Shown here: in pieces, positions 1,660 to 39,364 of the stretch
How the letters are laid out: the number at the start of each line of letters is the position of its first letter
How positions within the stretch are numbered: position 1 is the first letter of the stretch
From: Primorskyibacter sedentarius
GTDB lineage: Bacteria; Pseudomonadota; Alphaproteobacteria; Rhodobacterales; Rhodobacteraceae
NCBI RefSeq assembly: GCF_004342065.1
Contig: NZ_SLZU01000018.1
Location: forward strand, 1-64,000
Reading direction: 5' to 3'
Length of the DNA stretch: 64,000 bases
The notes under the pieces: model-generated
Database searches by the model: none
What the model was told of the DNA's origin: nothing
What the model saw: only the letters and a program-made list of their open reading frames with translations
Translations under genes and position numbers: made by a program

Positions 1660-3261
1660 TCAAAGTGGAATGAATCTGGGCAAGACGTCTTGGAGGTTCT
1701 CAAGGGCGTCCTGTAGGCGCTCCTCTGCCATCGCATCGGATTCGTTCGACGAAATCACCGTTGTCAGCCGTACCAATGCGCCATCGGTCCGACCCGTCCG
1801 GATGCCGTCCACCATCAGCCAGTATTTCGCGGCGAAGTCCCAAGCGATGCGTCGGCCTTTCTGTTCGAACCAGTAGTAGACCATCATGCGCAGCTCGCCC
1901 TTCTGGATGATCGCACGGTTGATCTTGAATGGCATATCGCTGTTCATCTGCGCAGTAATGTCTGAGCGTTCCAACCAGGCAATTTCCCAGCCAGCGCCCG
2001 GCAGGCAGATCTCGGGCGAATGCACGCCATCCTGACTTTGATCATCGTACCACGCCATGAAGAGTCCAATTGGCGGAGTCGTATCGTCACGCGCGAGGTC
2101 GACCTGTAGGTAGTCATCCGCGGCCAAAGCTTGCTCTACCCCCGGGGACAAGAACTGCCGTGGTCCCTGCTGACGCCAGCCTCCCAGTTGTCGGGGAAAC
2201 GCGGCGAAACTGTCACGCGCTGCGAGTTGTTCTCCCCGAGACGGCAACACCTGCCAGACACCGGCTGCGACTAGAAAAATCAGGGCCGCTGAAATCAGTG
2301 CGGCAGAGGGCTGGATCAGACGCAGGCGCATGGCCTGCGTGCCCAGCCCTTGGGTGTCGAGATCAAGCGCGTCGACGAGCGTCATCTTTTTCCGGTTGAA
2401 CAGCAGCATGATCCGCGCCAGCCCGAACAAAAGTAGGATGCAGATCAGGAAGATTACCCAGCCTTCAAAGAAATGGCTGAACCCGTCCACCCATTCGACG
2501 CCCCAAGTGTTCACGATATACCCGGCCACCGCGATCCGGACCGAATTCATCAACACTGTGATTGGTACGGCAGAGATCAGCAGTACTGCCTTGTGCCAAG
2601 TGGGGCCACGGTAGAGCACCGCAAAAATGTAGGAGAAACTGAGGATCGGAAATAGGTAGCGCAGCCCTGAACATGCTTCGGCCACGTGAAGCTTGGTGAC
2701 GCCCAGATCGATGATGTTACCGTCGAGGAAGACCGGAATCGACAGGATCTTGAGAAACCACACGCCCAACTCGGAAGACACGAACTGCAGCCAGGTGGTC
2801 AGTTTGTAATATAGGACCCCGGGAAGCGGGAGCATGTAGACAAGGTGCAAGACAGGCGGCCAGAAGTGCTTGCCCGTGGACCAGCCGAAGCTGATCAGCA
2901 GCACCCCGCCCACCCAAAGGATCAGTGCATAGGCGACGATGTCGGAAATCGTGGCAAGCTTACCCAGAAGCCCAAACAGCAGGGCAATCACGATAACGAC
3001 AACACCGATCCAGCGCCGATCCGCGGCACCGTGGTTTTCCGGGACCGTCTTCAGTTGCCTCAGGAACAGCAGTGCGGACAGGAGGGGAATAAGCGGGCCG
3101 TGACTGTATTCGGGCCGTTGCCAAGCTTCGAGAAGTGCCTCGATTCCATCGTCGAAAAAAATCAGGGCGGCAAGTGTGGCCACGATCAGCCAGAACATGC
3201 CCCAGTTCAGAAGACCTCCGAACCTGATTTTGGACTCTGTTGCACTATCCGAAAACGACAT
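1660..3261 (-). CDS. xrtD: Exosortase D fused to an EpsI domain (VPLPA-CTERM sorting enzyme)
   Basis: A 533-residue membrane protein. Residues 20-290 form the multi-helix exosortase domain with all three catalytic-site residues in their family contexts: Cys197 in EACSGLRYL, Arg242 in NSVRIAVAGY and His263 in GFSHFFEGW. Residues about 330-520 form an EpsI-type periplasmic domain (MAWYDDQ, HSPEICLPGAGW, YYWFEQKGRRIAWDF). This fused layout is the one known for XrtD, the exosortase that recognises C-terminal VPLPA-type signals and cleaves or transfers the protein at the cytoplasmic membrane. Three candidate substrates with such tails are at 4370-5185, 24496-25194 and 29931-30539. The gene is monocistronic. 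The ATG at 3261 has only a poorly placed AGG before it, but the reading frame starts sensibly just before the first helix. A 14-bp palindrome lies about 110 bp upstream. Confidence 0.95.
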   Translation of the reverse strand: MSFSDSATESKIRFGGLLNWGMFWLIVATLAALIFFDDGIEALLEAWQRPEYSHGPLIPLLSALLFLRQLKTVPENHGAADRRWIGVVVIVIALLFGLLGKLATISDIVAYALILWVGGVLLISFGWSTGKHFWPPVLHLVYMLPLPGVLYYKLTTWLQFVSSELGVWFLKILSIPVFLDGNIIDLGVTKLHVAEACSGLRYLFPILSFSYIFAVLYRGPTWHKAVLLISAVPITVLMNSVRIAVAGYIVNTWGVEWVDGFSHFFEGWVIFLICILLLFGLARIMLLFNRKKMTLVDALDLDTQGLGTQAMRLRLIQPSAALISAALIFLVAAGVWQVLPSRGEQLAARDSFAAFPRQLGGWRQQGPRQFLSPGVEQALAADDYLQVDLARDDTTPPIGLFMAWYDDQSQDGVHSPEICLPGAGWEIAWLERSDITAQMNSDMPFKINRAIIQKGELRMMVYYWFEQKGRRIAWDFAAKYWLMVDGIRTGRTDGALVRLTTVISSNESDAMAEERLQDALENLQDVLPRFIPL

Positions 3262-9311: not shown

Positions 9312-9829
9312 TTAAGCGTCGAAGCGCTCTTCGAACATTATGGCGAACTGGTTGCAGGCTGCAAACCATTCCCGGACATTTCGGCCATCCTTTTCGAATT
9401 TGCGGATGGCGAGGTAGATCAACTTGCTCGCGGCCTCGTCTGTCGGGAAGGAACCCCGCGTTTTGAAGGATTTCCGGATCACGCGGTTCAGACCTTCTAT
9501 GGCATTCATCGTGTAAATGATCTTGCGGATCGCCGGATCGAAGCCAAAGAACGGGATCTCCTCCTGCCATGCCCGTCGCCAGGCCGGGACGATGGACGCG
9601 TATTTTCCGGCCCATTTCTCCTCGAAAGCATCGAGCTCGGCCTCGGCCAGATCGGCGGTCGGGGCGCTGTAAATCCGGCGCAGGTCGGCGGCCACGATCT
9701 TGCGGTCCTTCCAGGAACAGAAGTTTAGGGAATGGCGCACCAGATGCACGATGCAGGTCTGGACCATAGCGTCCGGGAAGGCGGCGGTGATGGCTTCGGG
9801 AAAGCCCTTGAGGCCGTCCGTTCATTATG
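9312..9829 (-). pseudogene. IS256-family transposase, C-terminal fragment
   Basis: The minus strand from about 9829 reads DGLKGFPEAITAAFPDAM, then VQTCIVHLVRHSLNF, and later IRKIIYTMNAIEGLNRVIRK and RGSFPTDEAASKLIYLA. These are the conserved second half of IS256-type DDE transposases. The N-terminal half is absent: homology stops at an in-frame TGA at the junction with an IS3-type piece near 9830. Confidence 0.85.
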
Positions 9830-10331: not shown

Positions 10332-11423
10332 GTGGGAAAATTGAAAGTCGGCGTCGTGGGGCTTGGAAAGATGGGCCTCAGCCATTTCGCCATGGTCAAC
10401 GCGCATCCTGACGTGGAAACCATAGCCTGTGACGGCGCTGGGTTCATGGTCGATGTGCTGAGCAAGAACATCAACACGACCATTTACCGCGATTTTGACG
10501 AGATGCTGGCCAAGGAGCCGCTTGACGCGGTGGTGATTGCCACCCCCTCCCGGCTGCATGCACCGATGGTGACGGCCGCGCTCGACAAGGGGCTCCATGT
10601 CTTCTGCGAGAAACCCTTCTGCCTTGATTGGGCCGACAGCCAGCGGTTGACAGATACGGCCGCTGAAAAGGGTCTGGTGACGCAGGTGGGCTATCACTAC
10701 CGCTATGTTGGCGCCTTCCGCGAGATGAAGCGGCTGATCGACGCCGGCGCCATTGGCCGTATCACCCATGTCCTGGCCGAGGCCTACGGTCCGGTCGTAC
10801 TTCGTCCCAAGCGCTCAACCTGGCGCACGGACAAGGCCGAGGGCGGCGGCTGCCTTTACGACTACGCCGCCCATCCGCTGAACCTGCTGAACTGGTTCTT
10901 TGGCGCGCCCGACCGGGTGATGGGGTCCCATCTGGGACAGGTCTTTTCCGAAGGCACCGATGACGAGGTGTTCTCGACGCTACGGTGGAACGAAGGACCC
11001 ACCGCACAGCTTTCGGTGAACTGGTCAGACGAGAGCCATCGCAAGATGTCCACCAAGATCAGCCTTATCGGCACCAATGGTCGGTTGTATGCCGACCGGC
11101 AGGAATGCCAAGCCTATCTGCGCAAGCCCGTCGACGGGCTGGAAGGCTACGACGAAGGATGGACGGTAAAATACACCACCGAACTGACCGAAGAGCGCTG
11201 GTTCTACCTGCGCGGCGAGGAATATTCCGGCCAGCTTGATGATTTCATCTGCGCAGTTCGGGATGGCAAGCGGCAAGCCCCGGAAAACGGCTTTGCTTCG
11301 GCAACCGAGACGGACCGCACGATGGCAATGATCATCGAGAACGCCGAGACCGGGACCCCCGTGGGCGAAGCCCGCACCGGTGCCCCCCAGCCCGCGAAGA
11401 AGCGCGGCTGGTTTGGTCGCTGA
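10332..11423 (+). CDS. Gfo/Idh/MocA-family NAD(P)-dependent sugar oxidoreductase
   Basis: A 363-residue enzyme with an N-terminal Rossmann fold (VGVVGLGKMGLSH, residues 6-18) and the family motif CEKPF at 92-96, where Lys94 helps position substrate and cofactor. A conserved GGGCLYDYAAHPLNLLNW segment carries the substrate-site Asp/His pair. Members oxidise or reduce sugars or nucleotide sugars, here plausibly a precursor for the EPS. The last 20 residues are basic and Pro-rich. The start is GTG at 10332, preceded by GAGGGT. It is the first gene of a tight operon: 13 bases to the next gene, which then overlaps the third by one base. Confidence 0.85.
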   Translation: MGKLKVGVVGLGKMGLSHFAMVNAHPDVETIACDGAGFMVDVLSKNINTTIYRDFDEMLAKEPLDAVVIATPSRLHAPMVTAALDKGLHVFCEKPFCLDWADSQRLTDTAAEKGLVTQVGYHYRYVGAFREMKRLIDAGAIGRITHVLAEAYGPVVLRPKRSTWRTDKAEGGGCLYDYAAHPLNLLNWFFGAPDRVMGSHLGQVFSEGTDDEVFSTLRWNEGPTAQLSVNWSDESHRKMSTKISLIGTNGRLYADRQECQAYLRKPVDGLEGYDEGWTVKYTTELTEERWFYLRGEEYSGQLDDFICAVRDGKRQAPENGFASATETDRTMAMIIENAETGTPVGEARTGAPQPAKKRGWFGR

Positions 11424-11436
11424 GGAGGGAAAAGAT

Positions 11437-12306
11437 ATGGACAAGCTTCTGTTCGGCGACAATCAGTTCTTTGGCATCAATCACATGTCCGAGGAAAAGG
11501 CCCGCGCCCAGGCCATGCGGTTCCAGAAAACCCAAGCCATCATGGATGTGCTCGACGTGGCCTATGACACGGGCATCAACACTTTCATGTGCACGACCCA
11601 CGACCGCATCGCAGAAATTGCAAAGCGCGTGAAGGCAGACCCGGTACGCTACGCCGATTTCCAATTCTATCCTTGCATGCCCTATGCCCATAAATACGCC
11701 AATGCGGTGACGGAGCACGGCATGGTGGGCGCGCTTCGCGAGTTCATGCCCAAGGACGGGCTGCTGGCAACCGCGCTGACGGGGACCAAGGCGCTCGCCA
11801 CCAAGGAAGTCGACGGCATCGCCAAGGTGCTGATCGACATGGAGATGAAGATGTTCGAAGGCACGAAGACGCCTGTCGTCTTCATCCAGAACGTCTTTAC
11901 CGACCTGCTTCTGGGGATGGGGTTCACTCGCGCCCTGCGGATCTTCGATGACCATATCCGCGAAAAATGGGGCGCCGAGCCTGCCTATATCACCATGAAC
12001 ATGCCGATGCTGCTTGATGCCTTGGAAAAGGAAGGGATCGAACGTCCGATCATCTGCTCCAACATCAACAAGATCGGGTTCCGCATGTCGGGCGGGTTTG
12101 ATGCCTATCTCGACGCGCTGAAGTCGGGCCGCGTGCGGGCAGTGGCGATGTCGGTCTATGCGTCAGGCGCAATCCCTGCAGACGAAGCCATCCACTGGGT
12201 CTCGGAACTGCCCGGTGTGGAAAGCATCGTCTTCGGCGCTTCCTCGGCCGGAAACATCCGAGGCACGAAAGAACTGGTGGACAAGTATATGGGGCAACAT
12301 GCGTAA
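11437..12306 (+). CDS. Unrecognised 289-residue protein, possible TIM-barrel enzyme
   Basis: I do not recognise a defined family. The sequence starts MDKLLFGDNQFFGINHMSEEKA. It has alternating short hydrophobic strands and helices (YADFQFYPCMPY, TPVVFIQNVFTDLLLG, RPIICSNINKIGFRMSGG, VRAVAMSVYASGAIP, VESIVFGASSAGNIRG), a pattern suggesting a (beta/alpha)8 barrel. The last element, with G-A-S-S-A-G, resembles a phosphate-binding loop, as in aldo-keto-reductase-like or aldolase-like barrels. There is no signal peptide or membrane segment, so it is cytoplasmic. GAGGAGGGA six bases before the ATG at 11437 decides the start. Its place between an oxidoreductase and a WecG-type glycosyltransferase suggests it helps make or attach an unusual sugar. 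Confidence 0.75.
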   Translation: MDKLLFGDNQFFGINHMSEEKARAQAMRFQKTQAIMDVLDVAYDTGINTFMCTTHDRIAEIAKRVKADPVRYADFQFYPCMPYAHKYANAVTEHGMVGALREFMPKDGLLATALTGTKALATKEVDGIAKVLIDMEMKMFEGTKTPVVFIQNVFTDLLLGMGFTRALRIFDDHIREKWGAEPAYITMNMPMLLDALEKEGIERPIICSNINKIGFRMSGGFDAYLDALKSGRVRAVAMSVYASGAIPADEAIHWVSELPGVESIVFGASSAGNIRGTKELVDKYMGQHA

Positions 12307-13100
12307 TGGCCGATGCAAGCACTACCGAGATGGCCGCAGGGCTGGGCGAGATGAAGCGCGTGCAGATGCTGAACGCTTACGTTCATGACGTCTCCATGGA
12401 CGACATCGTGGAGCATTTCCGCGAGGGCGTGATGCTGACGCTGCATGTGGACATGATCATGAAGCTCCAGCAGGACCGCGAATTCTACGACCTGCTGGAC
12501 CAGTTCGACGTGATCACCTGCGACAGCCAGATCATGTATTTTGCCACCAAGTGGCTGGGAACCCCGGTACAGGAACGGGTTTCGGGCAGTGACTACTTCC
12601 CGAAATTCTACATGCGCTATGCGAATGACCCGTCCATGACCGTCTTCCTGTGCGGTGGCAAACCGGGCGTGGCAGACTTGGCGGCGAAGAACATAAATGA
12701 GAAAGTCGGCCGCGAGATGGTCATAGGCACTGACAGCCCGTCCTTCCATTTTGACAGTGACCCGGCCGAGATCGAACGCATGATCGCCGCGATCAACGAC
12801 AGCGGCGCAACGGTCTGCCTTGTCGGGCTCGCTGGCGGGCGGCAGGAAAAGTTCATCATGAAGTATCGCGACCGGATGCCGGGCGTGAAGCTTTGGCTGC
12901 CTTTGGGGGGCACCATCGACTACGAAAGCGGCACGTTTGACCGACCTCCCGTCTGGATTACCGAATGGGGTTTTGAGTGGCTTTACCGGCTGATCAAGGA
13001 ACCCCGCGCGCGCTTCCACCGCTACGTGATTCATGAGCCCCCCTTCTTGTGGGCGGTGCTCAAACAGAAGCTGGGACGCTATCGCGACCCCTTCGCCTGA
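12306..13100 (+). CDS. WecG/TagA/CpsF-family glycosyltransferase
   Basis: A 264-residue soluble glycosyltransferase of the GT26 type. Family features are SGSDYFPKF, FLCGGKPGVADLA, GLAGGRQEKFI, LPLGGTIDYESG and the C-terminal block GFEWLYRLIKEPRARFHRY, whose basic residues dock the enzyme at the membrane. Known relatives add N-acetylmannosamine-type or related sugars to a lipid-linked acceptor as the second step of polymer synthesis. The ATG shares one base with the stop of the preceding gene, so the two are probably translationally coupled. A possible terminator for the operon lies about 240 bases downstream. Confidence 0.85.
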   Translation: MADASTTEMAAGLGEMKRVQMLNAYVHDVSMDDIVEHFREGVMLTLHVDMIMKLQQDREFYDLLDQFDVITCDSQIMYFATKWLGTPVQERVSGSDYFPKFYMRYANDPSMTVFLCGGKPGVADLAAKNINEKVGREMVIGTDSPSFHFDSDPAEIERMIAAINDSGATVCLVGLAGGRQEKFIMKYRDRMPGVKLWLPLGGTIDYESGTFDRPPVWITEWGFEWLYRLIKEPRARFHRYVIHEPPFLWAVLKQKLGRYRDPFA

Positions 13101-13589
13101 CCAAAGCGAAACAAAACAGACCCCACTGAAACTGTTCCGTTAGGCGCGCGCCCAAGGGCGTTGCGTCAACTTTTGCTGTTATTGCTGTATCGCTCGCCCT
13201 GCTTTCAACTCAGGGCGGAAAACTGACAAAGCTCACAATATGCTTAAAATTTTATTACCACTTTTTATGAAAAACTTGTAATGTTCGCGTGTGTAAAAAA
13301 GTGTTGCGAGTTTTGTGGGTAATGTCCTGGGGGGGACGGTCGATCATCGGTAGGTCAATGGACGGCTTCTGGCCGACCGTTTTTTGGGTATGTAATTCCA
13401 TATAAATACGGGCCGTATTCGGCCGCTCCAAAAAGACTGCAAGTCCGGAATCTGTCCGCTTTATCCATCCCGGTCATAAGCGCCTGCAAGGCCTGTAACA
13501 CACCTGAAAATCGGTGCCGATAGGCCTGTCGGCATGTGTGTGTGAGAAAGCCTGGGGGAAACCCGGACAAAGGTCCTGGAGGGACGACG
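13101..13589 (+). promoter_or_regulatory. Long leader region before the giant repeat protein
   Basis: No gene is seen. The region holds a perfect 7-bp hairpin CGCCCTG/CAGGGCG at 13195-13217 and a very AT-rich block at about 13235-13310, where a promoter would fit. A terminator-like hairpin with a T-run follows (13336-13385), and then several small GC-rich hairpins, such as TGCCGA/TCGGCA near 13527-13546. The ribosome site GGAGGG precedes the ATG at 13590. The structured leader after the AT-rich block may be transcribed and control the giant gene. Confidence 0.4.
13336..13385 (+). terminator. Possible rho-independent terminator or attenuator
   Basis: ACGGTCG (13336-13342) pairs with CGACCGT (13374-13380) and is followed directly by a run of T to 13385. 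The 31-base loop contains further pairing. It could end the upstream three-gene operon or attenuate transcription of the giant gene, since AT-rich promoter-like sequence lies before it. Confidence 0.45.
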
Positions 13590-16500
13590 ATGACATATTA
13601 CCACTATGAATTTACTGCCTTTACGGAAGCTGACCTGTTGCAAGGTGGCGATACTAACCTGGGCAGTGGCGACAGCTTTGTCATGTCTGGTGGACCGTCG
13701 GTCTGCATCTCCACATGGGACGATGACGCCAAGCTTTCCGGGGACTACCGGGACAACGCCACAGACAGCACTGGCCAATATGCCAGCGTAGATGGCGCGC
13801 GTGTCGGCAGTCAGATGTATGCTGAAAGCTACCTCACCCTCCGGGGATCGGACGGCAATACCTATTACCTGATCGAGATCGAAGTGGAAGGTTACAGCGC
13901 GCCCGGCACCGGCGACGACTTCTTTACTTTCTACGGTGCGGTTCCGCCTGCGGGCGTCGAGTTGACCGTGACAGCCACCAACGACGTCTCGGGGCACTGG
14001 GTTGACTACCGCTGCCTCAGCGCGGGCGACAAGGCCCCTGCCAACACACCGCCCACCTTCACCAACCTCCCCTCCGACGGTATCATCACCGTGGACGAGA
14101 ACACCACCTTCGTGATCGACGCCAACGCGACTGACGCCGATGGTGACACGCTGACCTACGAGATCGTGGGCGGGCGCGACGCGGCTTTCTTTGACATTGA
14201 TGCCGCAACCGGCGAGCTGACCTTCAAATCCGGCCCCGATTATGAAAACCCCCAATCGGGTGGCAACAACAACACCTATGACGTGACCATCAAGGTCTCC
14301 GACGGCAATGGTGGCGAAGAAACCAAGGCTCTCTGGGTCAAGGTCAACGATGTCGACGAATCTGATCCGGACAACTGCATCGAAGTTCTGGGCCAGAACC
14401 TCATCGTCAACGGTGATTTTGAAGACAACGCACTGAACAACACCGGCTACGGTCTTTTTGACAGCCTGCCCGGCTGGGTTGCTGTGCAGGACCGGATTGA
14501 AATCCAGGAAAGCGATTACCAGACCGGCAATACCGAAGGGAATGCGGTTGCTGAGCTGGATGGAGATCTGAATGCGATCATCCGCCAAGAGGTTCAGATC
14601 ACCGATGCGGGCACCTACCGCTTCAGCATTGATTATGCCGCCCGTGGCACGGACTGGAGCACGAACGGCTTCGAGATCTATATCGACGGTGTGTTGCAGG
14701 AAACCGTACGGCCGACCCAGTCGGGCTTCCAGACCCTAACATTCGATGTCGAACTGGACGCAGGCTCGACCCGGATTGACCTCAAGGGGATCGGCGATTC
14801 TGATTGCCGCGGCACTGTTGTGGACAATGTCATGTTGCAGCATGTGACCGAAACCTCTTGCGAATGTATCATCATCGAAGCCGAGAACATGGACCTGAGC
14901 GGCTTCCGCGCCGTGACCGGGAGCCAGGCCTCTGGCGGCGAGCTGGTCTCGATGTCCCACCTTGGCGGTACGGGCGACCTGTCCACGACATTCACCGGCG
15001 CAAGCGGCTCTTACGAGCTCAAGCTCTATGCGCAGGATGAAAATGACGGTCAATCCACGTTGATGGTCAAGGTCAACGGCCATGTGGTGAAAACCATCGT
15101 GCTGAATCAGGACGGTGACGGCTCTGGCTCCGACGATGGCGGCTTTACGGCGTTCACCGTTGATGGCCTCGACCTGAAGTCCGGTGATGTCGTTTCGATC
15201 TGGGCCGACGGAGACTGTGGTGAATGGGTTCGCATCGACAAGATCGAGCTGTGCAAGGATGGGCAGGCTTGCCCCGAAGGCTATGCGAAGCTCGACTTCG
15301 AAGGCCTGGCCCGCGGCACCGTTGTCTATGACCAGTTCGAGGGTGTGACGATCACGGCCCAGCGGGAGCGTAACAACACCGCTGAAAACGATGCGATGAT
15401 CTTCGACAGCAACAACTGGTCCGGGGACGACAGCGACCTGTCCTATGACAATCAGGGCAATATCCTGATCGTGTCGACAGACAATAACAGCAGCAATCCG
15501 AACGACGCCATTGGCAGTTCGATCGTGTTCGATTTCGACAGCCCATCCGATCTGCACGACATCGTTCTGCTCGATATCGAGGAAGAAGGCGGCACCATCA
15601 CGCTGACCTTCGAAGACGGCTCGACCAGAGTTGTCGATATCCCGGGTGTTGGCGACAATTCGATCCAGACCATCGATCTGAACGCGGCCAATGTCACGAA
15701 GATGACGATCCACCTGACGGGGTCCGGCGCGGTTGACGATCTGTGCTGGAAGCCGGGCGAGGCTGTTGGGTCTGTTTCGGGCACCGTATTCTGCGATGTG
15801 GAATGCGATGGTATCAACGGCACTGCCGGAGAGATTGTTGAAGGTTGCGATTACACCATCGAAGCCGAAGACATGAACGCCTACAAATTCCACACGGTTG
15901 AGGCCGCGGATGCGTCCGGTGGCGAAATTGTTAAGCTGGTAGACTACCGCGGCACAGGCGATCTGCGCACCGATTTCGCGGGCAAGGACGGTGTCTATGA
16001 CGTCACGATTTTTGCGCAGGACGAAAACGACGGCCAATCCACCATCATGTTCAAGGTCAATGACGAGCTTGTCGAAGCCGTCCGCCTGGACCGCGACAGT
16101 GATGGCGCTGGCGATGACAACGGTTATTACTCGCAGTTCCTGATCGAAGGTGTCGAGCTTTCCGCCGGCGACGAGATCCTGATGTGGGTCGATGGCGACG
16201 ACGGCGAATGGGTCCGGATCGACAAGATCGAGCTGGAAGGCCGCGATCAGGTCACTGAAGGCACCAGCGAACCGGTGAAGGAAGGCGTCACGATCAAGCT
16301 GATCGATGTGGCGACCGATACCGTCATTGCCACCACCACCACGGATGTGGACGGCAACTACGAATTCACCAATGTGCCGGTTGGCGATTATAAGGTGATG
16401 GGTGTTGCACCGGATGGCACCGAGTTCACCATTCAGGATGCGGGCACCGATGACACCATCGACTCGGATGTGAATGACGAAGGCATGTCCGATGTCTTTA

Positions 16501-19500
16501 CCGTGACCGCAAATTCCAACTCGGATATCGATCTGGGCGTTTGTGACAAGCCTGAACTCGGCTCCCTCTCGGGCCGGTATTTCTGCGACGACAACCGCGA
16601 CGGTCTGGACAACGATGCCAACAATGCAGTGGCTGGCGTGGTCGTGACCCTGCTGGATGCATCGGGCAACCCGGTTCTGGACGGCGGCAACCCTGTCACC
16701 ACCATGACCGATGCCGATGGCAACTATTCCTTCGCGGATCTGCTTCCCGGCGATTACGGCGTGCGCTTTGAAAGCACGCCTGATGGCAAGGAGCTGACCG
16801 CTCAGGACGTTGGCACGGATGATGCCATCGACAGTGACGCGGCCGATAGCGGCAACGGCACCTCCACCATCCAGGGCATCACCGTGACTGCGGGCCAGGA
16901 TACGCCGAACAACGACGTGGGCGTGGTCTACCAGCCCGGTTCGCTGTCGGGCACGTATTTCTGCGACGAAGACCGTGATGGTGTCGACGATGGCGCGGCC
17001 AATGGCGATCCGGATATCGCGGGCAAGACCGTGACACTCTACGAGGCCGACGGCGTCACGCCTGCCACGGATATCGACGGCAACCCCGTCGCTCCCGTGC
17101 AGACCGATGCCAATGGCGACTACCGCTTCGACAACCTCGCGGCCGGTAACTACGTGGTGGTCTTTGAAGGCAGCGACGACAAGGCGTTTGTCGATCAGGA
17201 CACCGGCAGCGACGACACGATCGACAGCGATGTTGACGCGACGGGCACGACTGCGCCGGTTGGCGTGGTTGCAGGCGAAGAGACGACCGATGTCGATGCA
17301 GGGGTTGCCTATATCCCCGGCTCGCTGTCGGGCACCTACTTCTGCGACGACAACCGTGACGGTGACGATGATGGCGCGGCCAATGGCGACGCGGATATCG
17401 CGGGCAAACTGGTCACTCTGCTGAATGCAGATGGCACGCCAGCGACGGATATCGACGGCAACCCCGTCGCAGCCGTGCTGACCGATGCCAATGGTGACTA
17501 CAGCTTCGATAACCTCGCGGCTGGCGACTACAAGGTCATGTTCGAGGCCACCGACGGCAAGGAGTTCATCGCTCAGGACGCAGGTAACGACGACACCGAC
17601 GACAGCGATGTTGATCCGGCCACCGGCATGACCGCTCCGGTCACTGTTGTCGCGGGCCAGAACACCCCCGATGTCGACGCCGGCGTGCAATACATCCTCG
17701 GCTCCCTCTCGGGCCGGTATTTCTGCGACGACAACCGCGACGGTCTGGACAATGATGCCAACAACGCGGTGGCTGGCGTGGTCGTGACCCTGCTGGATGC
17801 GGCGGGCAACCCGGTTCTGGACGGCGGCAACCCTGTCACCACCATGACCGATGCCGATGGCAACTATTCCTTCGGGGATCTGCTTCCCGGCGATTACGGC
17901 GTGCGCTTTGAAAGCACGCCCGATGGCAAGGAGCTGACCGCTCAGGACGTTGGCACGGATGATGCCATCGACAGTGACGCGGCCGATACCGGCAACGGCA
18001 CCTCCACCATCCAGGGCATCACCGTGACTGCGGGTCAGGATACGCCGAACAACGACGTGGGCGTGATCTACCAGCCCGGTTCGCTGTCTGGCACGTATTT
18101 CTGTGACGAAGACCGCGATGGTGTCGACGATGGCGCGGCCAATGGCGATCTGGATATCGCGGGCAAGACCGTGACACTCTACGAGGCCGACGGCGTCACG
18201 CCTGCCACGGATATCGACGGCAACCCCGTCGCTCCCGTGCAGACCGATGCCAATGGCGACTACCGCTTCGACAACCTCGCGGCCGGTAACTACGTGGTGG
18301 TCTTTGAAGGCAGCGACGACAAGGCGTTTGTCGGTCAGGACACCGGCAGCGACGACACGATCGACAGTGACGTTGACGCGACGGGCACGACTGCGCCGGT
18401 TGGTGTGGTTGCAGGCGAAGAGACGACCGATGTCGATGCAGGGGTTGCCTATCTCCCCGGTTCGCTGTCGGGCACGTATTTCTGCGACGACAACCGTGAC
18501 GGCGACGATGATGGCGCGGCCAATGGCGACGCGGATATCGCGGGCAAGCTGGTCACTCTGCTGAACGCAGATGGCACGCCGGCGACGGATATCGACGGCA
18601 ACCCCGTCGCCCCCGTGCTGACCGATGCCAATGGTGACTACAGCTTCGATAACCTCGCGGCTGGCGACTACAAGGTCATGTTCGAGGCCACCGACGGCAA
18701 GGAGTTCATCGCTCAGGACGCAGGTAACGACGACACCGACGACAGCGATGTTGATCCTGCCACCGGCATGACCGCTCCGGTCACTGTTGTCGCGGGCCAG
18801 AACACCCCCGATGTCGACGCCGGCGTGCAGGATCTTCTTGGGTCTGTGTCAGGCACCTATTTCTGCGATGAGAACGGAAACGGCGCCTTCGACAACGAAA
18901 AAGGCATCGGAAATCGCTCTGTGACTCTGGAGGGTGCCGGCGACGATGGCCTCTTCGGGACCACCGATGACATCCTGCTGACCACCACGACGGCGGACGA
19001 CGGCACCTTTGCCTTCGAAAACCTCAACGCAGGCGACTACAAGGTTTCCATTGCCGGTGCAGGCTTCGTCGCGGGACTTGATGTGGATGAGAACGGGATG
19101 TCCCCCATCATCGACTTGAGCGCGGGCGAGAATCTTGAACTGCTTGCAGCAAGTGAATGCCTCGAAGTGTCCAGTACCGATCTTCTCGGGATCGCTGAAA
19201 TCCTCGAAAATGCAGAGAATATTGCCGGTTTCGGTTTCCCGAATGATGCGGGCCGTGGCGAGCTCTTCTATGACGCGACGGATGGCAGCATCACGGGTGA
19301 TATCAAAATCACATCGCTCCAACTGGATGGTGGCACGGTCGTGGAATACACCGATGCGGAAGGTCCTCTTCTGCGCTTCGATCTCGCGATCGACAGCAAC
19401 GGCGATATCATCCCAAGCGGTGAAAGCGACGATCTTCTGGCGTATGAGGATGTGAACGGAAACCGCCTGTTCGATGAGGGCGACGTGGTCTTGCTCGAGG

Positions 19501-19748
19501 CAACCGCGCTGGCGTCCGGTTTCGTCGAATCCGGCAGCATGGACTTCATTTTCGAAGTGAACGGCGGGACCATGGCAGACAACTTTGATCCGCTGATCGG
19601 AATGAGCGTGGGCAACAATCCTCTCTTTGTCGACGGAGAGCGGGTCACGACGGTTTCACTGGACGAAGACTTCATCGGGCGTCCGAAAGGCTTCGTAGGT
19701 GATCTGGATTACGATTGCTTCTGCTTCATGGACGATAGCGTGATGTGA
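13590..19748 (+). CDS. Giant repeat protein with CBM-like modules and SdrD-B-like repeats
   Basis: A 2,052-residue, very acidic protein, probably a matrix or adhesion component. Domains in order: an unrecognised N-terminal region (1-150) without a Sec signal; a cadherin-like domain (about 153-257, VDENTTFVIDANATDADGD); a beta-sandwich segment beginning NLIVNGDFED (268-423); a carbohydrate-binding-like module IIEAENMDLSGF (425-558); and a further beta domain (563-723). A second similar module (EAEDMNAYKFHTVEA, about 755-885) is inserted between the two halves of an SdrD-B-like repeat. Six SdrD-B-like repeats (about 990-1750) each contain YFCD(D/E)xRDG, followed by one more (about 1750-1830) and an unrecognised C-terminal domain. 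The Asp/Asn-rich DxNxDG loops suggest calcium binding. GGAGGG before the ATG at 13590 sets the start; the open frame runs back to 13536. No RTX nonapeptides are present, so the export route is unclear. Confidence 0.85.
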   Translation: MTYYHYEFTAFTEADLLQGGDTNLGSGDSFVMSGGPSVCISTWDDDAKLSGDYRDNATDSTGQYASVDGARVGSQMYAESYLTLRGSDGNTYYLIEIEVEGYSAPGTGDDFFTFYGAVPPAGVELTVTATNDVSGHWVDYRCLSAGDKAPANTPPTFTNLPSDGIITVDENTTFVIDANATDADGDTLTYEIVGGRDAAFFDIDAATGELTFKSGPDYENPQSGGNNNTYDVTIKVSDGNGGEETKALWVKVNDVDESDPDNCIEVLGQNLIVNGDFEDNALNNTGYGLFDSLPGWVAVQDRIEIQESDYQTGNTEGNAVAELDGDLNAIIRQEVQITDAGTYRFSIDYAARGTDWSTNGFEIYIDGVLQETVRPTQSGFQTLTFDVELDAGSTRIDLKGIGDSDCRGTVVDNVMLQHVTETSCECIIIEAENMDLSGFRAVTGSQASGGELVSMSHLGGTGDLSTTFTGASGSYELKLYAQDENDGQSTLMVKVNGHVVKTIVLNQDGDGSGSDDGGFTAFTVDGLDLKSGDVVSIWADGDCGEWVRIDKIELCKDGQACPEGYAKLDFEGLARGTVVYDQFEGVTITAQRERNNTAENDAMIFDSNNWSGDDSDLSYDNQGNILIVSTDNNSSNPNDAIGSSIVFDFDSPSDLHDIVLLDIEEEGGTITLTFEDGSTRVVDIPGVGDNSIQTIDLNAANVTKMTIHLTGSGAVDDLCWKPGEAVGSVSGTVFCDVECDGINGTAGEIVEGCDYTIEAEDMNAYKFHTVEAADASGGEIVKLVDYRGTGDLRTDFAGKDGVYDVTIFAQDENDGQSTIMFKVNDELVEAVRLDRDSDGAGDDNGYYSQFLIEGVELSAGDEILMWVDGDDGEWVRIDKIELEGRDQVTEGTSEPVKEGVTIKLIDVATDTVIATTTTDVDGNYEFTNVPVGDYKVMGVAPDGTEFTIQDAGTDDTIDSDVNDEGMSDVFTVTANSNSDIDLGVCDKPELGSLSGRYFCDDNRDGLDNDANNAVAGVVVTLLDASGNPVLDGGNPVTTMTDADGNYSFADLLPGDYGVRFESTPDGKELTAQDVGTDDAIDSDAADSGNGTSTIQGITVTAGQDTPNNDVGVVYQPGSLSGTYFCDEDRDGVDDGAANGDPDIAGKTVTLYEADGVTPATDIDGNPVAPVQTDANGDYRFDNLAAGNYVVVFEGSDDKAFVDQDTGSDDTIDSDVDATGTTAPVGVVAGEETTDVDAGVAYIPGSLSGTYFCDDNRDGDDDGAANGDADIAGKLVTLLNADGTPATDIDGNPVAAVLTDANGDYSFDNLAAGDYKVMFEATDGKEFIAQDAGNDDTDDSDVDPATGMTAPVTVVAGQNTPDVDAGVQYILGSLSGRYFCDDNRDGLDNDANNAVAGVVVTLLDAAGNPVLDGGNPVTTMTDADGNYSFGDLLPGDYGVRFESTPDGKELTAQDVGTDDAIDSDAADTGNGTSTIQGITVTAGQDTPNNDVGVIYQPGSLSGTYFCDEDRDGVDDGAANGDLDIAGKTVTLYEADGVTPATDIDGNPVAPVQTDANGDYRFDNLAAGNYVVVFEGSDDKAFVGQDTGSDDTIDSDVDATGTTAPVGVVAGEETTDVDAGVAYLPGSLSGTYFCDDNRDGDDDGAANGDADIAGKLVTLLNADGTPATDIDGNPVAPVLTDANGDYSFDNLAAGDYKVMFEATDGKEFIAQDAGNDDTDDSDVDPATGMTAPVTVVAGQNTPDVDAGVQDLLGSVSGTYFCDENGNGAFDNEKGIGNRSVTLEGAGDDGLFGTTDDILLTTTTADDGTFAFENLNAGDYKVSIAGAGFVAGLDVDENGMSPIIDLSAGENLELLAASECLEVSSTDLLGIAEILENAENIAGFGFPNDAGRGELFYDATDGSITGDIKITSLQLDGGTVVEYTDAEGPLLRFDLAIDSNGDIIPSGESDDLLAYEDVNGNRLFDEGDVVLLEATALASGFVESGSMDFIFEVNGGTMADNFDPLIGMSVGNNPLFVDGERVTTVSLDEDFIGRPKGFVGDLDYDCFCFMDDSVM
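16560..18839 (+). repeat. 1,140-bp tandem duplication inside the giant gene
   Basis: The segment starting near 16560 recurs at exactly +1,140 bases (near 17700) with only scattered substitutions, most of them silent. Each unit encodes 380 residues, equal to three SdrD-B-like repeats. The three repeats within a unit are less alike than the two units are to each other, so a three-repeat block was duplicated recently. Confidence 0.95.
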
Positions 19749-19812: not shown

Positions 19813-20016
19813 GTGACGGCAGGGGTTTTGAAGCAGATGGCAGACACGCTGTGCAAACTCCTGCAACACCCATCACATGCGGCTCGTAAACCATGTTTCG
19901 TTTGCAATTTCCTAAATCTCTAAGTAAATGTTAGACATATATTGACCGTAAATTTCAGTTTTCGCTGACGGATGTTTTTTTGACACGGAATGTTTTTTTC
20001 TGAGGTTCTAAGTATA

Positions 20017-20700
20017 ATGACGACATATTTTCCGGATTTTTCCGCGGATGGCGAAGCCATCACATTTGAAGCAGCACAACCGGATCGCACCGGCAGCTTC
20101 TACCACCAGAACGTGAAACGCTGGATTGATGTCGCGCTTGTCGTGTTTTCCTTGCCTGTCGTGCTGCCCGTTGTGGCGCTGATGAGCCTGCTTGTCATGA
20201 TGGACGGGCATAACCCGTTATATTTTCAACGTCGGATCGGACAGGGCGGAAAGATCTTCCGTATCTGGAAGATGCGTACGATGGTCCCCGGTTCCGATGC
20301 CGCGCTTCAGGCCTATCTGGACGCCAATCCAGCCGCTCGGGCCGAATGGGATGCCACCCAGAAGCTGCGCAAGGATCCCCGCATCACCCTTGTCGGCCGC
20401 GTTCTGCGCAAGACCTCTCTGGATGAGCTGCCGCAGCTGTGGAACGTGTTGAACGGGACCATGTCCCTTGTCGGGCCGCGCCCGATGATGGTCAGCCAGC
20501 AGCTGCTTTACCCTGGCCGCGCCTATTACGCGCTGCGCCCGGGCATTACCGGCCTGTGGCAAGTCTCTGACCGCAATGACAGCACCTTTGCCGGGCGCGC
20601 GGTCTATGACGACCGCTATGCCCGTTGCGTTTCCCTGAAGACCGATCTGCGGGTGCTGGTTCAGACCGTTGGCGTCGTTCTGCGCGCAACCGGACACTAA
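20017..20700 (+). CDS. ExoY/WcaJ-like priming sugar-phosphate transferase
   Basis: A bacterial sugar transferase of about 227 residues. It has one N-terminal reentrant/membrane helix ([20 protein letters not shown]), then [19 protein letters not shown], and the catalytic C-terminal block [21 protein letters not shown] followed by [14 protein letters not shown] and [14 protein letters not shown]. Such enzymes move a sugar phosphate from a nucleotide sugar to undecaprenyl phosphate, the first committed step of EPS assembly. Short members without the large N-terminal membrane domain are ExoY-like. I use the ATG at 20017; an ATG at 19990 in the same frame is also possible and adds nine residues. 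It is flanked by two strong terminators, so it is a single-gene unit. Confidence 0.9.
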
Positions 20701-24495: not shown

Positions 24496-25194
24496 GTGTT
24501 CAGAAAATTAATTTTGCCTTTGATTTTATTGGCACTTCCCTGCGTTTCGATAGCGTCCACCGTCAATATCGATATGGACGCCAGCTGGAAACAGTACAAA
24601 AGCCTGTACGGCATGAGGACCGATACGAACGCGCGCGGCGGTGATCTGGCGGGAATGATCGTTACAGCCTCTTATCTCGACGGCACGACAGAGCAAGTCG
24701 TTTGGGGCAAGACACGAGGCGGTGGGCAGGCTACCGGCTCCGGCTTCAACCTGTACAAGGGCTGGCAAGACCTCGAATTGACCGTAACAAAGTCGCTTGT
24801 GTCCCTTTCCTTGGACGCGCGAGCAGGCAACGCGATTTTCGACACAAGTAGCTCCAGAGCCTACGGTGACGACACTTACGGAACAAAGATCGGCTATCCG
24901 TTCCACGTCACTGGAGACTATGACCCTGAAGGCACTATAGGTGTGAGCTATACTCACAGCTTTTTTGTTGCCGGCCAAGTGCGTGCGACAGATGCATACA
25001 CGTATATGGCAATCGACTTCAGTGGCTTGGATGGAGGCGGATTGTCCAGAGATTTGCGGTTCAACACGGATCTAGACAACGTTGCTGTGGCCGGCGACCT
25101 CACGCCTGTGCCGCTTCCTGCATCCCTACTGCTATTCGCATCGGCTTTCGGGATCATGGGTGTAGGGCGCACTCGTAAGGTTACTTCACGGTAA
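24496..25194 (+). CDS. VPLPA-CTERM surface protein
   Basis: A 232-residue secreted protein of unknown function. A Sec signal peptide (MFRKLILPLILLALPCVSIAS) is followed by a body of predicted beta strands (YLDGTTEQVVWGKTRGGG, LYKGWQDLELTVTKSLVSLSLDA). The tail is textbook: TPVPLPASLLLFASAFGIMG and then TRKVTSR, that is, VPLPA motif, hydrophobic helix and basic end. It should be processed by XrtD at 1660-3261. The start is GTG at 24496, preceded by GGAG eight bases upstream. Confidence 0.88.
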   Translation: MFRKLILPLILLALPCVSIASTVNIDMDASWKQYKSLYGMRTDTNARGGDLAGMIVTASYLDGTTEQVVWGKTRGGGQATGSGFNLYKGWQDLELTVTKSLVSLSLDARAGNAIFDTSSSRAYGDDTYGTKIGYPFHVTGDYDPEGTIGVSYTHSFFVAGQVRATDAYTYMAIDFSGLDGGGLSRDLRFNTDLDNVAVAGDLTPVPLPASLLLFASAFGIMGVGRTRKVTSR

Positions 25195-29930: not shown

Positions 29931-30539
29931 TCAGGCCTTCTTGCGACGCTTGCGCAGGGCCATCAGGCCAAAGCCGGTAAGCAACAGACCAGCTCCTGCC
30001 GGAAGTGGTACAGCAGCCACGGAGATTTCCCGCATCCGGATCCCGCGCCAGCCCTCGCTGTCTGGAGAAGTGGCAACAAATGCGAAAACTTCACCACGGA
30101 GCCCGCTGGCACTCAGGCTGAAGGTTTCGAACGATCTGTCCACAGGACCATCGGTTGCATCCGACGGGATCGTGAACGTCTCGGCGTAAACTCCATCAAT
30201 GTAGAGGTCCACGGTTTCATCTTCCGGGCCCTTCTCGAAAATGACGGCCTGCAGCAAACGGTGCGTGATCGGGCTGAAGTCAAACGCCAAGGCCTCACCA
30301 CCGGCCGCGAAGTGCTCCTCGGCGCCGTATGATACACCCCAGCCATTGTTGTGGCGATTGATCAGACCAGTAGTCCCGGCATTATAGTCGGAATAGGCTG
30401 TCACCACGGCGGTAGACCCTTCACTGGTCAGCGTGACCGAGTTCAGGTCGTCAGATCCTGAACCCAAAGTGAATGTCGCTGCGGATGCGCCACCTGCCAA
30501 CAGAACAACTGCTGCAGCGGCCAAAACTGTCTTCTTCAT
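29931..30539 (-). CDS. VPLPA-CTERM surface protein
   Basis: A 202-residue secreted protein of unknown function. It has a signal peptide (MKKTVLAAAAVVLLAGGASA) and a beta-rich body (TFTLGSGSDDLNSVTLTSEG, ETVDLYIDGVYAETFTIPSD). The tail is AAVPLPAGAGLLLTGFGLMAL followed by RKRRKKA, a clean VPLPA motif plus helix plus basic end. It is the most typical XrtD substrate in the window. GGGGG stands just before the ATG. A TATAAA-like element lies about 50 bases upstream on the minus strand. Its own terminator follows, so it is a single-gene unit. Confidence 0.9.
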   Translation of the reverse strand: MKKTVLAAAAVVLLAGGASAATFTLGSGSDDLNSVTLTSEGSTAVVTAYSDYNAGTTGLINRHNNGWGVSYGAEEHFAAGGEALAFDFSPITHRLLQAVIFEKGPEDETVDLYIDGVYAETFTIPSDATDGPVDRSFETFSLSASGLRGEVFAFVATSPDSEGWRGIRMREISVAAVPLPAGAGLLLTGFGLMALRKRRKKA

Positions 30540-31776: not shown

Positions 31777-32904
31777 TCAATTATCCTGACCTGCCCGCTT
31801 CTTCACCCAACCCAGAAAAGCTCTGGCGGGGGATTTCAGGGGCGGGGCGCCGGAGGCGGCCCAGACGTCTCGCCATTCAGCCTCCAGCGCATAGATGTCG
31901 GCACCCGGTACCATCGCGCGCGCGGCATTCAGCGTATCGGGCGAGAGTGGTGGAATCTGCGCGGCAGGCTCCACCACCTCGGCCACAGGTCGGACACAGA
32001 TGATGTCGCCCTCTTCTTCGGTCAACGTGTAGTCAGGCAGGTGCGCATCGCGGATGATCTCGCGCAGCATCGCGCGAAACACGCGGCGCGGACTTGCAGA
32101 GCCGGATTTCTTGCACAGCGTATCGACCGAAACGCGCCATTCTGGTTGCCGACCACAATGCTTGCGACAGAGTTCGTAGATCCTGCGCTCCAGGGGGCGA
32201 CGCAGGGAGAAGTAGTCCCGACTGAGGGTCAGAACCGATTTGGACAGCACCGCGCGGTAGAGCCATTCCGAGAGTGTCACTGCAACACTGACCATACGCC
32301 CGCCACGGGTGCGCCGGACGATCTCCCAGCTTTCGATCAGGCCGAAACCGGTGGTGACTTCGAACGGATCTGCCTTAGGGCCGGTGGCGATATTTGTGGT
32401 GATACGTGTGCCAGCCAGCCGCTCGAACGCATCGCGCAGCCTCTTGTACCCATCTCCTGACGTTTCGCGCCCGGTCGCCAGAAGCAGATCATGCGCGGTA
32501 AGGGTCAGCGTGCGCTGCGTGGGACGCCCGACATTGATCGCCGCCATCAACTGCGAAATGCAGAAGATCAGGATATCAGCATCAAAGATCGTCGCGCGAC
32601 CCTTCACCGAGGGCGTCACCGTCACTTCGATATCGTTGTGGCGATATTCGATGATGCGACGGTCGGGGCGCGTGGACAGCGAGAAGAGCGGATGTTCCAT
32701 CGAAGCAAGGTCGTGCTTGGGAACCGCCGCGAAGAAGTCACAAACAAAAAAATCACCCACGGCCTGCGGGGCCCTGGCGCTCACCTTCTTGCTGCCGCAA
32801 GTCTGCGACCTATCTCTGTCATGCCCTGCTCGCTCTCGTCTCTGGCGCCGCTTGCCTGTGGTCCGAAAACCCGGGGCGCTCTTCGGTGTTTCAATTACAC
32901 CCAC
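31777..32904 (-). CDS. repA: Plasmid replication initiator RepA (RPA family)
   Basis: About 375 residues. The family core runs from VGDFFVCDFFAAVPKHDLAS and MEHPLFSLSTRPDRR through TPSVKGRATIFDADILIFC and RPLERRIYELCRKHCG to the C-terminal winged-helix region with KSGSASPRRVFRAMLREI. This is the initiator of RepA-type replicons common on roseobacter plasmids. It should bind the iterons upstream of its own gene and start replication. The start is uncertain: GTG at 32904 with GGGG before it is my choice; a TTG at 32949 keeps the frame open. The first 60 residues are basic and low-complexity. It is divergent from parA-parB, the usual layout for this class. Confidence 0.92.
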   Translation of the reverse strand: MGVIETPKSAPGFRTTGKRRQRRERAGHDRDRSQTCGSKKVSARAPQAVGDFFVCDFFAAVPKHDLASMEHPLFSLSTRPDRRIIEYRHNDIEVTVTPSVKGRATIFDADILIFCISQLMAAINVGRPTQRTLTLTAHDLLLATGRETSGDGYKRLRDAFERLAGTRITTNIATGPKADPFEVTTGFGLIESWEIVRRTRGGRMVSVAVTLSEWLYRAVLSKSVLTLSRDYFSLRRPLERRIYELCRKHCGRQPEWRVSVDTLCKKSGSASPRRVFRAMLREIIRDAHLPDYTLTEEEGDIICVRPVAEVVEPAAQIPPLSPDTLNAARAMVPGADIYALEAEWRDVWAASGAPPLKSPARAFLGWVKKRAGQDN

Positions 32905-32924
32905 AGTAGAAACCCCACGCGATT

Positions 32925-33254
32925 CTGTCCACAAGCCAGGCCTCCGCAATCGTGGGATCGGAGTCGGTTCAGCGTGGGTTCAGAGTCGCCTTATCGTGGG
33001 TTCAGAGTCGGTCTGCCTGTGGCAGAAGCACGAAAGCTACATTAAAACAGAACTTTACGTGAAAGCTTAGACTGCTGTAACTTATAAATAACAGAAAAAT
33101 AACTAAGACGCGCTGCCAAGGCGTGGAGTTTCAAAGACCAGCGCATCCCTGCAAAACATTGGATTTGCTTGGAAACATATTGAATGATCACTGTTTTCTT
33201 GCATGTGCCGCCTTTTTCGATATCCTAAGAAAAACACAGCATATCGAGAGGGTC
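32925..33254. other. Replication-origin region between repA and parA
   Basis: The gap holds three 22-bp iterons (32951-33016), a DnaA-box-like CTGTCCACA (32925-32933, 7 of 9 matches to TTATCCACA) and an AT-rich tract at about 33040-33110 that could serve as the unwinding element. Its position between initiator and partition genes supports an origin. No gene is present. Confidence 0.65.
32951..33016 (+). repeat. Three 22-bp iterons
   Basis: Direct repeats begin at 32951, 32973 and 32995, exactly 22 bases apart. The conserved core is CGTGGGTTCAGAGTCG (copies 2 and 3 identical; copy 1 reads CGTGGGATCGGAGTCG), followed by six variable bases. Two helical turns per unit and the location beside repA match initiator-binding iterons. 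Confidence 0.85.
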
Positions 33255-34670
33255 ATGAGCAGCACATCCTCCCCACCGCCCTATTTCAGGATCGCACCCG
33301 ATGCTGCGATGTCGGCCATGGACGAACCTGTCCAAACCGCCGATTTCGCAGAGATCGCAGAAGCCTGCCTTCGCGGACGCAATGATCTCGCCGGGCGTGG
33401 AATGAATCCCGACGGGTCTAAGACATTGCGTCTGTTTTCGACATGGGAAATCACCAAGTATCTCATCCCGGTAGCGCCCGCACATTTCCGCCGGGTGTTG
33501 CGGTCTCATCCCGATTTGCCCCAAGGCCAGTCGGAAACCGATGGCGGCGCGAAATGGTTCACCTTCGACGAGGTGCTTCGGCTGCGCGCCTATTTCGGGG
33601 CCGAGGGCTCCAAGGCCAAAGAGTACCTGCCCTACCGGCCTGATGGCCTGCCCGCAAAGGTCGTGGCGGTGGCCAATTTCAAGGGCGGTGTTGGCAAGAC
33701 ATCCACCGCCGCGCATCTGGCAATGTCAGCGGCCCTGGACGGCTACAAGGTTCTGGTGATCGATCTGGACAGCCAGGGATCGATGACGTCGATCCTGAAC
33801 GGGCAGGTGGACGATGAATGGCAGACCGTCTTCCCGATGATCGCCAGGCATTACGCGGAATATCTGCGGAACGAAAATCAACGGCGCCTTGATCGGGGAG
33901 AGACCCCCCTGCCCTTGGACGATACGCTGAGTGAGGCGCTGGAAATAGAACCTGCCGATCTCGTGCGGTCCACGCATTGGCCAAATATTGATCTCATCGG
34001 CGCACAGCTCAATCTCTATTGGTCAGAATTCCAGATCCCGGTCTGGCGCATGGCCGGGCGCAGCTGGAAGCTCTGGGACGCGCTGAGTGAGGCGCTGGAG
34101 AGCGGAGGGCTGCTCGACAGCTATGACCTCGTCGTGCTCGATACCCCCCCTGCCCTTGGCTATCTGACGATCAATGGGCTGGCAGCGGCCGATATCCTCA
34201 TCGTACCCACCGGCGCCTCTTTCGTCGAATTCGACAGCACGGGGCGGTTCTTTGACATGCTGCACGCCGCCTTCCAATCGATCGAGGAAGGCGAGAACAT
34301 GGCTGCCCGCGCCTTGGGGCGTCCTGAGCTGCGTTTTGAATGGGATGCGGTGCAAACGGTAATCACCCGCTTCGATTCCAGCCAGCAGGCAGAGATGGCC
34401 GGGCTGATGCAAACCTATCTTGGGCACCGCCTGTCGCCTTTCCGGCAGGATTACACGGCACTGATCGGGCAGGCTGGAGAGCGCGTTCACGGGATCTACG
34501 AGGCCGATTACCGCGATTTCAACCGTGATACCTATGCACGGGGGCGTGCCGCCTTCGACGAGACCTATGCGGCGTTCAAGCGGCTTCTCGTGGGCAGCTG
34601 GCGCAAGGACGAACTGGATCGGGAAAAAGAGGGCAGGGCAGCGCAAGATGCGGCTCTGAGCGCGGGTTAG
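33255..34670 (+). CDS. parA: ParA-family partition ATPase
   Basis: A 471-residue ATPase. An N-terminal DNA-binding region (about 1-130, FSTWEITKYLIPVAPAHFRRVL and KWFTFDEVLRLRAYFG) is followed by the deviant Walker A box FKGGVGKTS (about residue 141-149), DLDSQGSMTS and the Walker B strand DLVVLDTPPALGYLT. Such long ParA proteins move plasmids to daughter cells and repress their own operon through the N-terminal domain. The ATG at 33255 is preceded by GAGAGGG and begins a typical PPPYFRI lead; the open frame extends to 33123 but that part looks untranslated. parB follows after 25 bases. Confidence 0.93.
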   Translation: MSSTSSPPPYFRIAPDAAMSAMDEPVQTADFAEIAEACLRGRNDLAGRGMNPDGSKTLRLFSTWEITKYLIPVAPAHFRRVLRSHPDLPQGQSETDGGAKWFTFDEVLRLRAYFGAEGSKAKEYLPYRPDGLPAKVVAVANFKGGVGKTSTAAHLAMSAALDGYKVLVIDLDSQGSMTSILNGQVDDEWQTVFPMIARHYAEYLRNENQRRLDRGETPLPLDDTLSEALEIEPADLVRSTHWPNIDLIGAQLNLYWSEFQIPVWRMAGRSWKLWDALSEALESGGLLDSYDLVVLDTPPALGYLTINGLAAADILIVPTGASFVEFDSTGRFFDMLHAAFQSIEEGENMAARALGRPELRFEWDAVQTVITRFDSSQQAEMAGLMQTYLGHRLSPFRQDYTALIGQAGERVHGIYEADYRDFNRDTYARGRAAFDETYAAFKRLLVGSWRKDELDREKEGRAAQDAALSAG

Positions 34671-34695
34671 AGCCGCATAGAGGAGGTACGGGATC

Positions 34696-39024: not shown

Positions 39025-39364
39025 GTTGCAAGTCCCTCGATTTTCGTCATGCGGCATCGGCTTGCGCGCAAATTCATCCGGGGGCTTGCAGGGCAAACCC
39101 CATTTGACGCACGACAACTTTTTGCTCGTGCGTTATTCAGAGATTTCCGCGGAGAACTGCTCTTTTAGTTATGACACTCGTAACCATGCGGACGGGACAT
39201 TCCTGAGCGAATGCCCGATTTGCAGTTCTTGTATGGAAAAATTTGTTACCGGCAAGTTAACGATTTGTGTCGCGCGGCCCAGACCTTTGCGCCCGGCAAA
39301 AATTAGCCGACCGTTTCATTCGATGACGCAGAAACTTGCTTGTTTGAGGTGAGCCTCTGAAGAA
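36447..39364. repeat. 2.9-kb direct duplication, copy A
   Basis: Bases 36447-39364 recur at +6,805 (43252-46169). I see only two substitutions by eye: one makes a Gly/Val change in the protein (near 38821) and one is upstream of the gene (near 39306). The copy covers about 340 bases upstream of the start codon and codons 1-859. The similarity ends sharply at both borders. Confidence 0.95.
39107..39133 (-). promoter_or_regulatory. Stem-loop in the leader of the RTX gene
   Basis: ACGCACGA and TCGTGCGT form a perfect 8-bp stem around an 11-base loop, 83-110 bases upstream of the start codon. No T-tract follows, so it is more likely an operator or leader structure than a terminator. The identical element precedes the second giant gene at 45912-45938. 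Confidence 0.45.

Follow-up and report, generated by a model that had tools for sequence, protein, structure and literature searches.

A Gfo/Idh oxidoreductase gene paired with a gene for a barrel protein of predicted aldo-keto reductase fold in polysaccharide clusters

Genes at the locus

The window, the whole 64,000-nucleotide stretch of DNA analyzed here, carries three closely spaced genes on the + strand. The first gene of the module (10332-11423, +) encodes a 363-residue Gfo/Idh/MocA-family oxidoreductase, whose Rossmann and C-terminal domains both scored above the Pfam cut-offs (PF01408, 85.7 bits; PF22725, 89.7 bits). Its stop codon occupies 11421-11423, and a ribosome-binding-like GGAGGG (11424-11429, +; read from the sequence) follows directly, 5' of the second gene and within the 13-base gap that separates the two. 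The second gene (11437-12306, +) is the subject of this study; it starts with ATG and encodes a 289-residue protein, hereafter the barrel protein, which has a predicted aldo-keto reductase fold and appears to lack the canonical catalytic tetrad. The third gene (12306-13100, +) encodes a 264-residue GT26 glycosyltransferase of the WecG/TagA/CpsF type, which exceeded the cut-offs of both PF03808 (155.2 bits; cut-off 27.4) and TIGR00696 (88.4 bits; cut-off 69) and has TarA (7mpk; E 2.8e-25) as a PDB relative. The start of the GT26 gene lies inside the stop codon of the barrel gene, and the TAATG overlap (12304-12308, +) can be read directly. The start, the ribosome-binding-like sequence and the overlap thus confirm a genuine open reading frame between the oxidoreductase and WecG-type genes, as well as the translational link to a GT26-type glycosyltransferase, both of which had been claimed in a preliminary description of this DNA. 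A promoter and terminator scan detected no promoter-like site upstream of the module (1 site found, 1.8 expected).

Just upstream of the module lies a fragment of a Mutator-family transposase (9312-9767, -; PF00872, profile positions 250-371 of 379), which is an insertion-sequence remnant. The gene right after the module (13536-19748, +) encodes a protein of 2070 residues in which seven stretches are SdrD B-like and which may be the surface protein of this locus. The window also contains the gene of the exosortase XrtD (1660-3261, -; TIGR04152, 659 bits, cut-off 400), and short proteins with VPLPA-like C-termini (24496-25194 and 29931-30539) resemble XrtD targets by eye. Two large proteins (35800-39117 and 40430-45922, both -) are near-identical over their first approximately 900 residues and differ in their C-terminal parts when compared by eye; they appear to be the product of a recent duplication.

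Predicted fold and catalytic positions of the barrel protein

The barrel protein belongs to no Pfam or NCBIfam family, since the best matches to their profiles were noise (E 0.3 and 0.087), in agreement with the earlier statement that no family could be named. PDB searches yielded only chance matches and hence no sequence relative, whether started from the barrel protein itself (best E 0.46), from its profile or from an actinobacterial member. Homologues on plasmids are annotated as "hypothetical protein". We found no description of the barrel family or of its pairing with a Gfo/Idh gene in the titles and abstract openings that our searches of the open-licence literature brought up, with probably weak coverage of papers on Gfo/Idh/MocA proteins.

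An AlphaFold2 model was built from a 51-sequence alignment, with strands assigned by DSSP. It had a mean pLDDT of 82.4 and a pTM of 0.82, and was weak at residues 13-15 and 107-123. The model consists of eight strands alternating with helices, so that the "barrel-like" character noticed earlier was correct, and aldo-keto reductases are the structures that it matches best. The top rows of a Foldseek search with the model were nearly all such enzymes (best E 1.4e-6, TM ~0.6), and VIA-align 2 aligned 224 residues of it with PA4992 (4exb, 4exa) over the full length (Z 17.8, rmsd 3.1), the two proteins being 12% identical. The predicted (beta/alpha)8 barrel thus matches solved aldo-keto reductases end to end.

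At the sequence level, the resemblance to aldo-keto reductases is weak and limited to the C-terminal quarter. PF00248 gave no match for the barrel protein of the window or for three other members (L122, L123 and L094), compared with a score of 204.5 for a true aldo-keto reductase. HHalign of the barrel profile against aldo-keto reductases, a set that included one reductase picked by the profile, gave a score of 34.8 (P 4.7e-4) over the last ~52 columns, while the best of 60 column shuffles reached 20.9; nine aldo-keto reductases not picked by the profile gave P 0.0055 in the same C-terminal region. According to HHalign, the region from strand 7 to strand 8 (AMSVYASG ... FGASS; 12145-12246, +) resembles the cofactor-phosphate end of aldo-keto reductases.

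The catalytic tetrad of aldo-keto reductases consists of Asp, Tyr, Lys and His. Judging from alignment around the predicted strands, Asp, Tyr and Lys appear to be absent from the barrel protein and His appears to be replaced by Gln. Met51 (11587-11589, +) is found at the position of the catalytic Asp in an alignment of the DSSP-assigned strand 2 by eye, the Tyr position corresponds to His55 or Asp56, Lys is missing at and near the end of strand 3, and Gln151 (11887-11889, +) takes the position of the His. Two actinobacterial members, L122 (6782-7747, -) and L123 (6689-7882, +), carry His at this position instead of the Gln of the other members shown, and may stand one stage closer to genuine aldo-keto reductases. 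The barrel protein shares the fold throughout and the strand 7-8 resemblance with aldo-keto reductases such as PA4992, but differs from them in its lack of a PF00248 score, in its putative tetrad positions, and in its adjoining Gfo/Idh gene. On the basis of the predicted model, we therefore regard it as a distant and altered relative within the aldo-keto reductase fold and do not class it as an aldo-keto reductase enzyme. We take it to be a new family within an established fold, and its gene pairing is new but typical of sugar enzymes.

The most conserved stretch in both of our alignments, A1 and A2, is the signature GDNQFFGINHMSEEKA (residues 7-22; 11455-11502, +) at strand 1. Fifteen of its 16 residues, G7-A22, are invariant across all 17 rows of A2, which extends down to 43% identity, indicating that the barrel gene is not a chance open reading frame. 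Some of these residues are altered in more distant members (L122, L123 and L124); most members keep the signature, the Asn188 that follows strand 5, and the loops of strands 7-8. The invariant polar residues in A2 include His16, His85, Lys86, Asp134, Glu136, Asn152, Asn188, Cys207 and Asn211.

These many invariant polar residues, together with the predicted fold and a likeness to the cofactor site in the region of strands 7-8 and at the Asn that follows strand 5, are what would be expected if the barrel were still a nicotinamide-dependent reductase with unusual catalytic residues. The Gfo/Idh enzyme would then oxidize one position of a sugar and the barrel would reduce the resulting keto group from the other face, generating an epimer. 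We consider this rather unlikely, as the tetrad Asp, Tyr and Lys are missing in the alignments, His is exchanged for Gln, and PF00248 gives no score.

The conserved gene pair and its neighbors

Six peptide patterns were run against 84,980 species genomes in a single scan. They hit 375 stretches, and in 364 of these a relative of the barrel protein is encoded. The best 80 of these 364 relatives (97 to 64% identity) were kept for analysis of their loci. In 79 of the 80, a Gfo/Idh homologue is the immediate upstream neighbor in the same orientation, with a gap of -2 to 149 bases; in the exception, L044, the contig end leaves just 136 bases upstream of the barrel gene. Since the genome of the window contains 15 Gfo/Idh matches in 5.07 Mb, this pairing is far beyond chance. 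A Gfo/Idh gene was also found upstream in all of 19 further loci, some of which may repeat counted species, and in one of them (L097) Alg14-like and Alg13-like open reading frames, named by eye, are located between the two genes. The pair is kept in a Bacteroides member (barrel 42-43%, Gfo/Idh 36% identity) and in two Actinomycetota members (barrel about 31-32%, Gfo/Idh 30-32%).

The EKP and D-x3-H motifs of Gfo/Idh enzymes are catalytic, and E93 K94 P95, D177 and H181 (L003 numbering) are retained in at least 97% of 41 aligned rows. Pairwise distances of the barrel and Gfo/Idh proteins were correlated with r 0.83 (n=79; 0 of 2000 permutations as high), and the correlations with WecG were 0.48 for the barrel and 0.70 for Gfo/Idh (n=41), with shared host ancestry contributing to all three values.

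The preliminary description had treated the three genes of the window as a trio that might co-occur elsewhere. The trio does recur in Rhodobacterales, but we rejected it as the conserved unit: Gfo/Idh accompanies the barrel gene in 79 of the 80 loci, while a WecG gene is adjacent in only half of them (40/80 within 1.5 kb). The conserved unit is thus the pair of Gfo/Idh and barrel genes, probably an old two-gene module.

Such strict one-to-one linkage, combined with the apparent loss of the tetrad, might also be found if the barrel were a non-catalytic partner of Gfo/Idh, serving as a scaffold or sensor in the manner of SmbA. SmbA, whose aldo-keto-reductase-like barrel binds nucleotides, was among the Foldseek matches (7b0e, rank 32). 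However, the conserved polar residues spread over the strand ends resemble an active site more than a binding face, and the signature stretch is retained across phyla; we regard a non-catalytic role as unlikely.

The transferase slot was counted within 1.5 kb on the same strand at the 80 loci, with families assigned by Pfam. GT26 occurs in 40 loci (38 downstream and 2 upstream), a DUF1972-GT4 gene upstream in 10, a DUF354 gene upstream in 8, and Alg13/Alg14-like genes upstream in 7. Accordingly, one of these four transferase-like families adjoins the pair in 65 of the 80 loci, and two kinds are never found together (0/80). We take the DUF354 and DUF1972 proteins to be transferases. Within the same limits, the other 15 loci have none of the four families; three of these (L044, L049 and L075) are on short or cut contigs, L023 has a GT26 gene 3.4 kb away, and L040 has a GT4-like gene downstream. 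The WecG gene is therefore one of several interchangeable transferases: the third gene of the window is a member of the WecG/TagA/CpsF family (GT26, e.g. TarA), yet it lies outside the conserved core.

Because the linked transferases are unrelated, they could supply different acceptors for editing, and the pair might act on a sugar already transferred, either lipid-linked or polymeric, instead of on a nucleotide sugar. Most Gfo/Idh enzymes that take part in polysaccharide synthesis act on nucleotide sugars, and inspection by eye shows neither a membrane segment nor a signal peptide in the two proteins of the pair. Both points argue against editing after transfer, which we find quite improbable.

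The module loci examined are polysaccharide clusters. WecB is present in at least 9 of the 80 loci, UDP-sugar dehydrogenase in at least 17, and XrtD in at least 12, these counts being lower bounds as the flanks were at most 8 kb. The suggested link to xrtD is local, being seen in 12 of the 80 loci within the flanks, and does not hold as a general rule. We rejected a general exosortase association on this count, and the module as such does not belong to the exosortase system.

The best 80 loci are mostly from Rhodobacterales, followed by Burkholderiales, Rhodocyclaceae, Aureimonas, Nitrosospira, Microbacteriaceae, Nocardioides and Bryocella, and include several metagenome bins, the naming of which is less secure. 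The barrel gene was detected in 7 of the 394 genomes searched in the window's own family (a count that includes the window's genome), 2 of 398 in the sample of its phylum, 2 of 60 in the first sample of relatives, and 3 of 246 in the phylum of the Nocardioides locus. In the family of the Pseudoduganella locus the count was 10 of 294, one of these ten being no better than a chance hit on an ordinary aldo-keto reductase. The weak match G571 (21.2 bits) was rejected as a member of the barrel family, being an ordinary aldo-keto reductase; its E of 8.6e-4 is a per-genome value and is not significant alone, because 294 genomes were searched.

Some modules are located on plasmids, and the Rhodovulum plasmid pRGUI04 carries similar replication genes near the same module. 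The window encodes Replication initiator protein A (PF10134) with ParA-like and ParB-like genes at 31777-35685, and its contig is probably an exopolysaccharide plasmid. The patchy occurrence of the barrel gene and its location on plasmids suggest that the module spread by horizontal transfer.

Possible function in sugar synthesis

We favor a reading in which the pair converts a common nucleotide sugar to an uncommon sugar of surface polysaccharides, with the barrel isomerizing or epimerizing a keto sugar and the transferase using the product, and we give it a probability of roughly 0.4. The Gfo/Idh enzyme would oxidize a ring hydroxyl, most likely that at C3, of a common nucleotide sugar with NAD. 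The barrel, having apparently lost the reductase residues, would isomerize or epimerize the resulting keto sugar, and the Gfo/Idh enzyme may re-reduce the altered keto sugar with the same NADH. The adjacent transferase (GT26 here; elsewhere DUF1972-GT4, DUF354 or Alg13/14-like) would then move the new sugar to a lipid-linked acceptor for exopolysaccharide assembly.

A common nucleotide sugar is expected as the starting point because none of the other sugar-nucleotide enzymes sought, including WecB and UDP-sugar dehydrogenase, is universal at the loci. The role of an isomerase or epimerase fits the putative loss of reductase residues from the barrel. The nearest named NCBIfam models of the Gfo/Idh protein are UDP-N-acetylglucosamine 3-dehydrogenase (NF040723, 100.9 bits) and inositol 2-dehydrogenase (TIGR04380, 117.9 bits), but these scores are far under the respective cut-offs of 450 and 355, so that the substrate is not given by the family. 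We infer the substrate, the position of oxidation, the reaction of the barrel, and the use of its product by the transferase. The preliminary description had proposed that the trio makes and attaches an unusual sugar or other group; a sugar pathway is the most likely context, the trio is not its unit, and the nature of the sugar and its attachment are likewise what we infer. As two genes alone are conserved and both products look soluble, the reaction of the pair can be tested directly in vitro.

The pairing logic resembles that of levoglucosan breakdown, in which Gfo/Idh-type oxidation of a sugar at position 3 is reported to be followed by the action of enzymes annotated as sugar phosphate isomerases on the 3-keto sugar (PMC7676230). 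The likeness to LgdA/LgdB consists of sugar 3-dehydrogenation and a partner that, as we propose for the barrel, would act on the keto sugar (PMC7676230). In contrast, the partners described there are annotated sugar phosphate isomerases in a catabolic route (PMC7676230), while the barrel has a predicted aldo-keto reductase fold and is encoded in polysaccharide clusters. On the strength of the shared logic, the pair could be a catabolic 3-keto lyase pathway of oxidation, elimination and hydration that is merely located near polysaccharide genes. Transferase and polysaccharide genes occupy the loci examined, however, and no catabolic genes were recognized among the scanned neighbors, which makes a catabolic pathway very improbable.

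A more far-reaching version of the favored nucleotide-sugar reading, which is possible but doubtful, is that the barrel shed its reductase residues to become a dedicated keto-sugar isomerase or epimerase, which would be a chemistry new to this fold, and that together with Gfo/Idh it provides transferases of at least four unrelated families, across several phyla, with an activated sugar that has yet to be described. A sugar absent from current pathway maps may be the product of this cross-phylum module, whose two genes are annotated just as "oxidoreductase" and "hypothetical protein". Confirmation would allow a sugar to be predicted for hundreds of polysaccharide gene clusters and would add a non-reductase chemistry to the aldo-keto reductase fold.

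Enzymes of the WecG family are believed to attach the second sugar to an UndPP-linked one (PMC11340318). In contrast to the usual WecG/TagA/CpsF enzymes, a ManNAc-type donor is doubtful here: the genome of the window gave no UDP-GlcNAc 2-epimerase match, and the WecG donor therefore probably does not come from the usual ManNAc route. The Gfo/Idh and barrel pair may supply the WecG donor in this genome. That the pair makes UDP-ManNAc in place of WecB was kept as a side idea only, as WecB is also present in 9 of the 80 loci. A WbaP-like initiating transferase is encoded in the same window (19990-20700; profile match).
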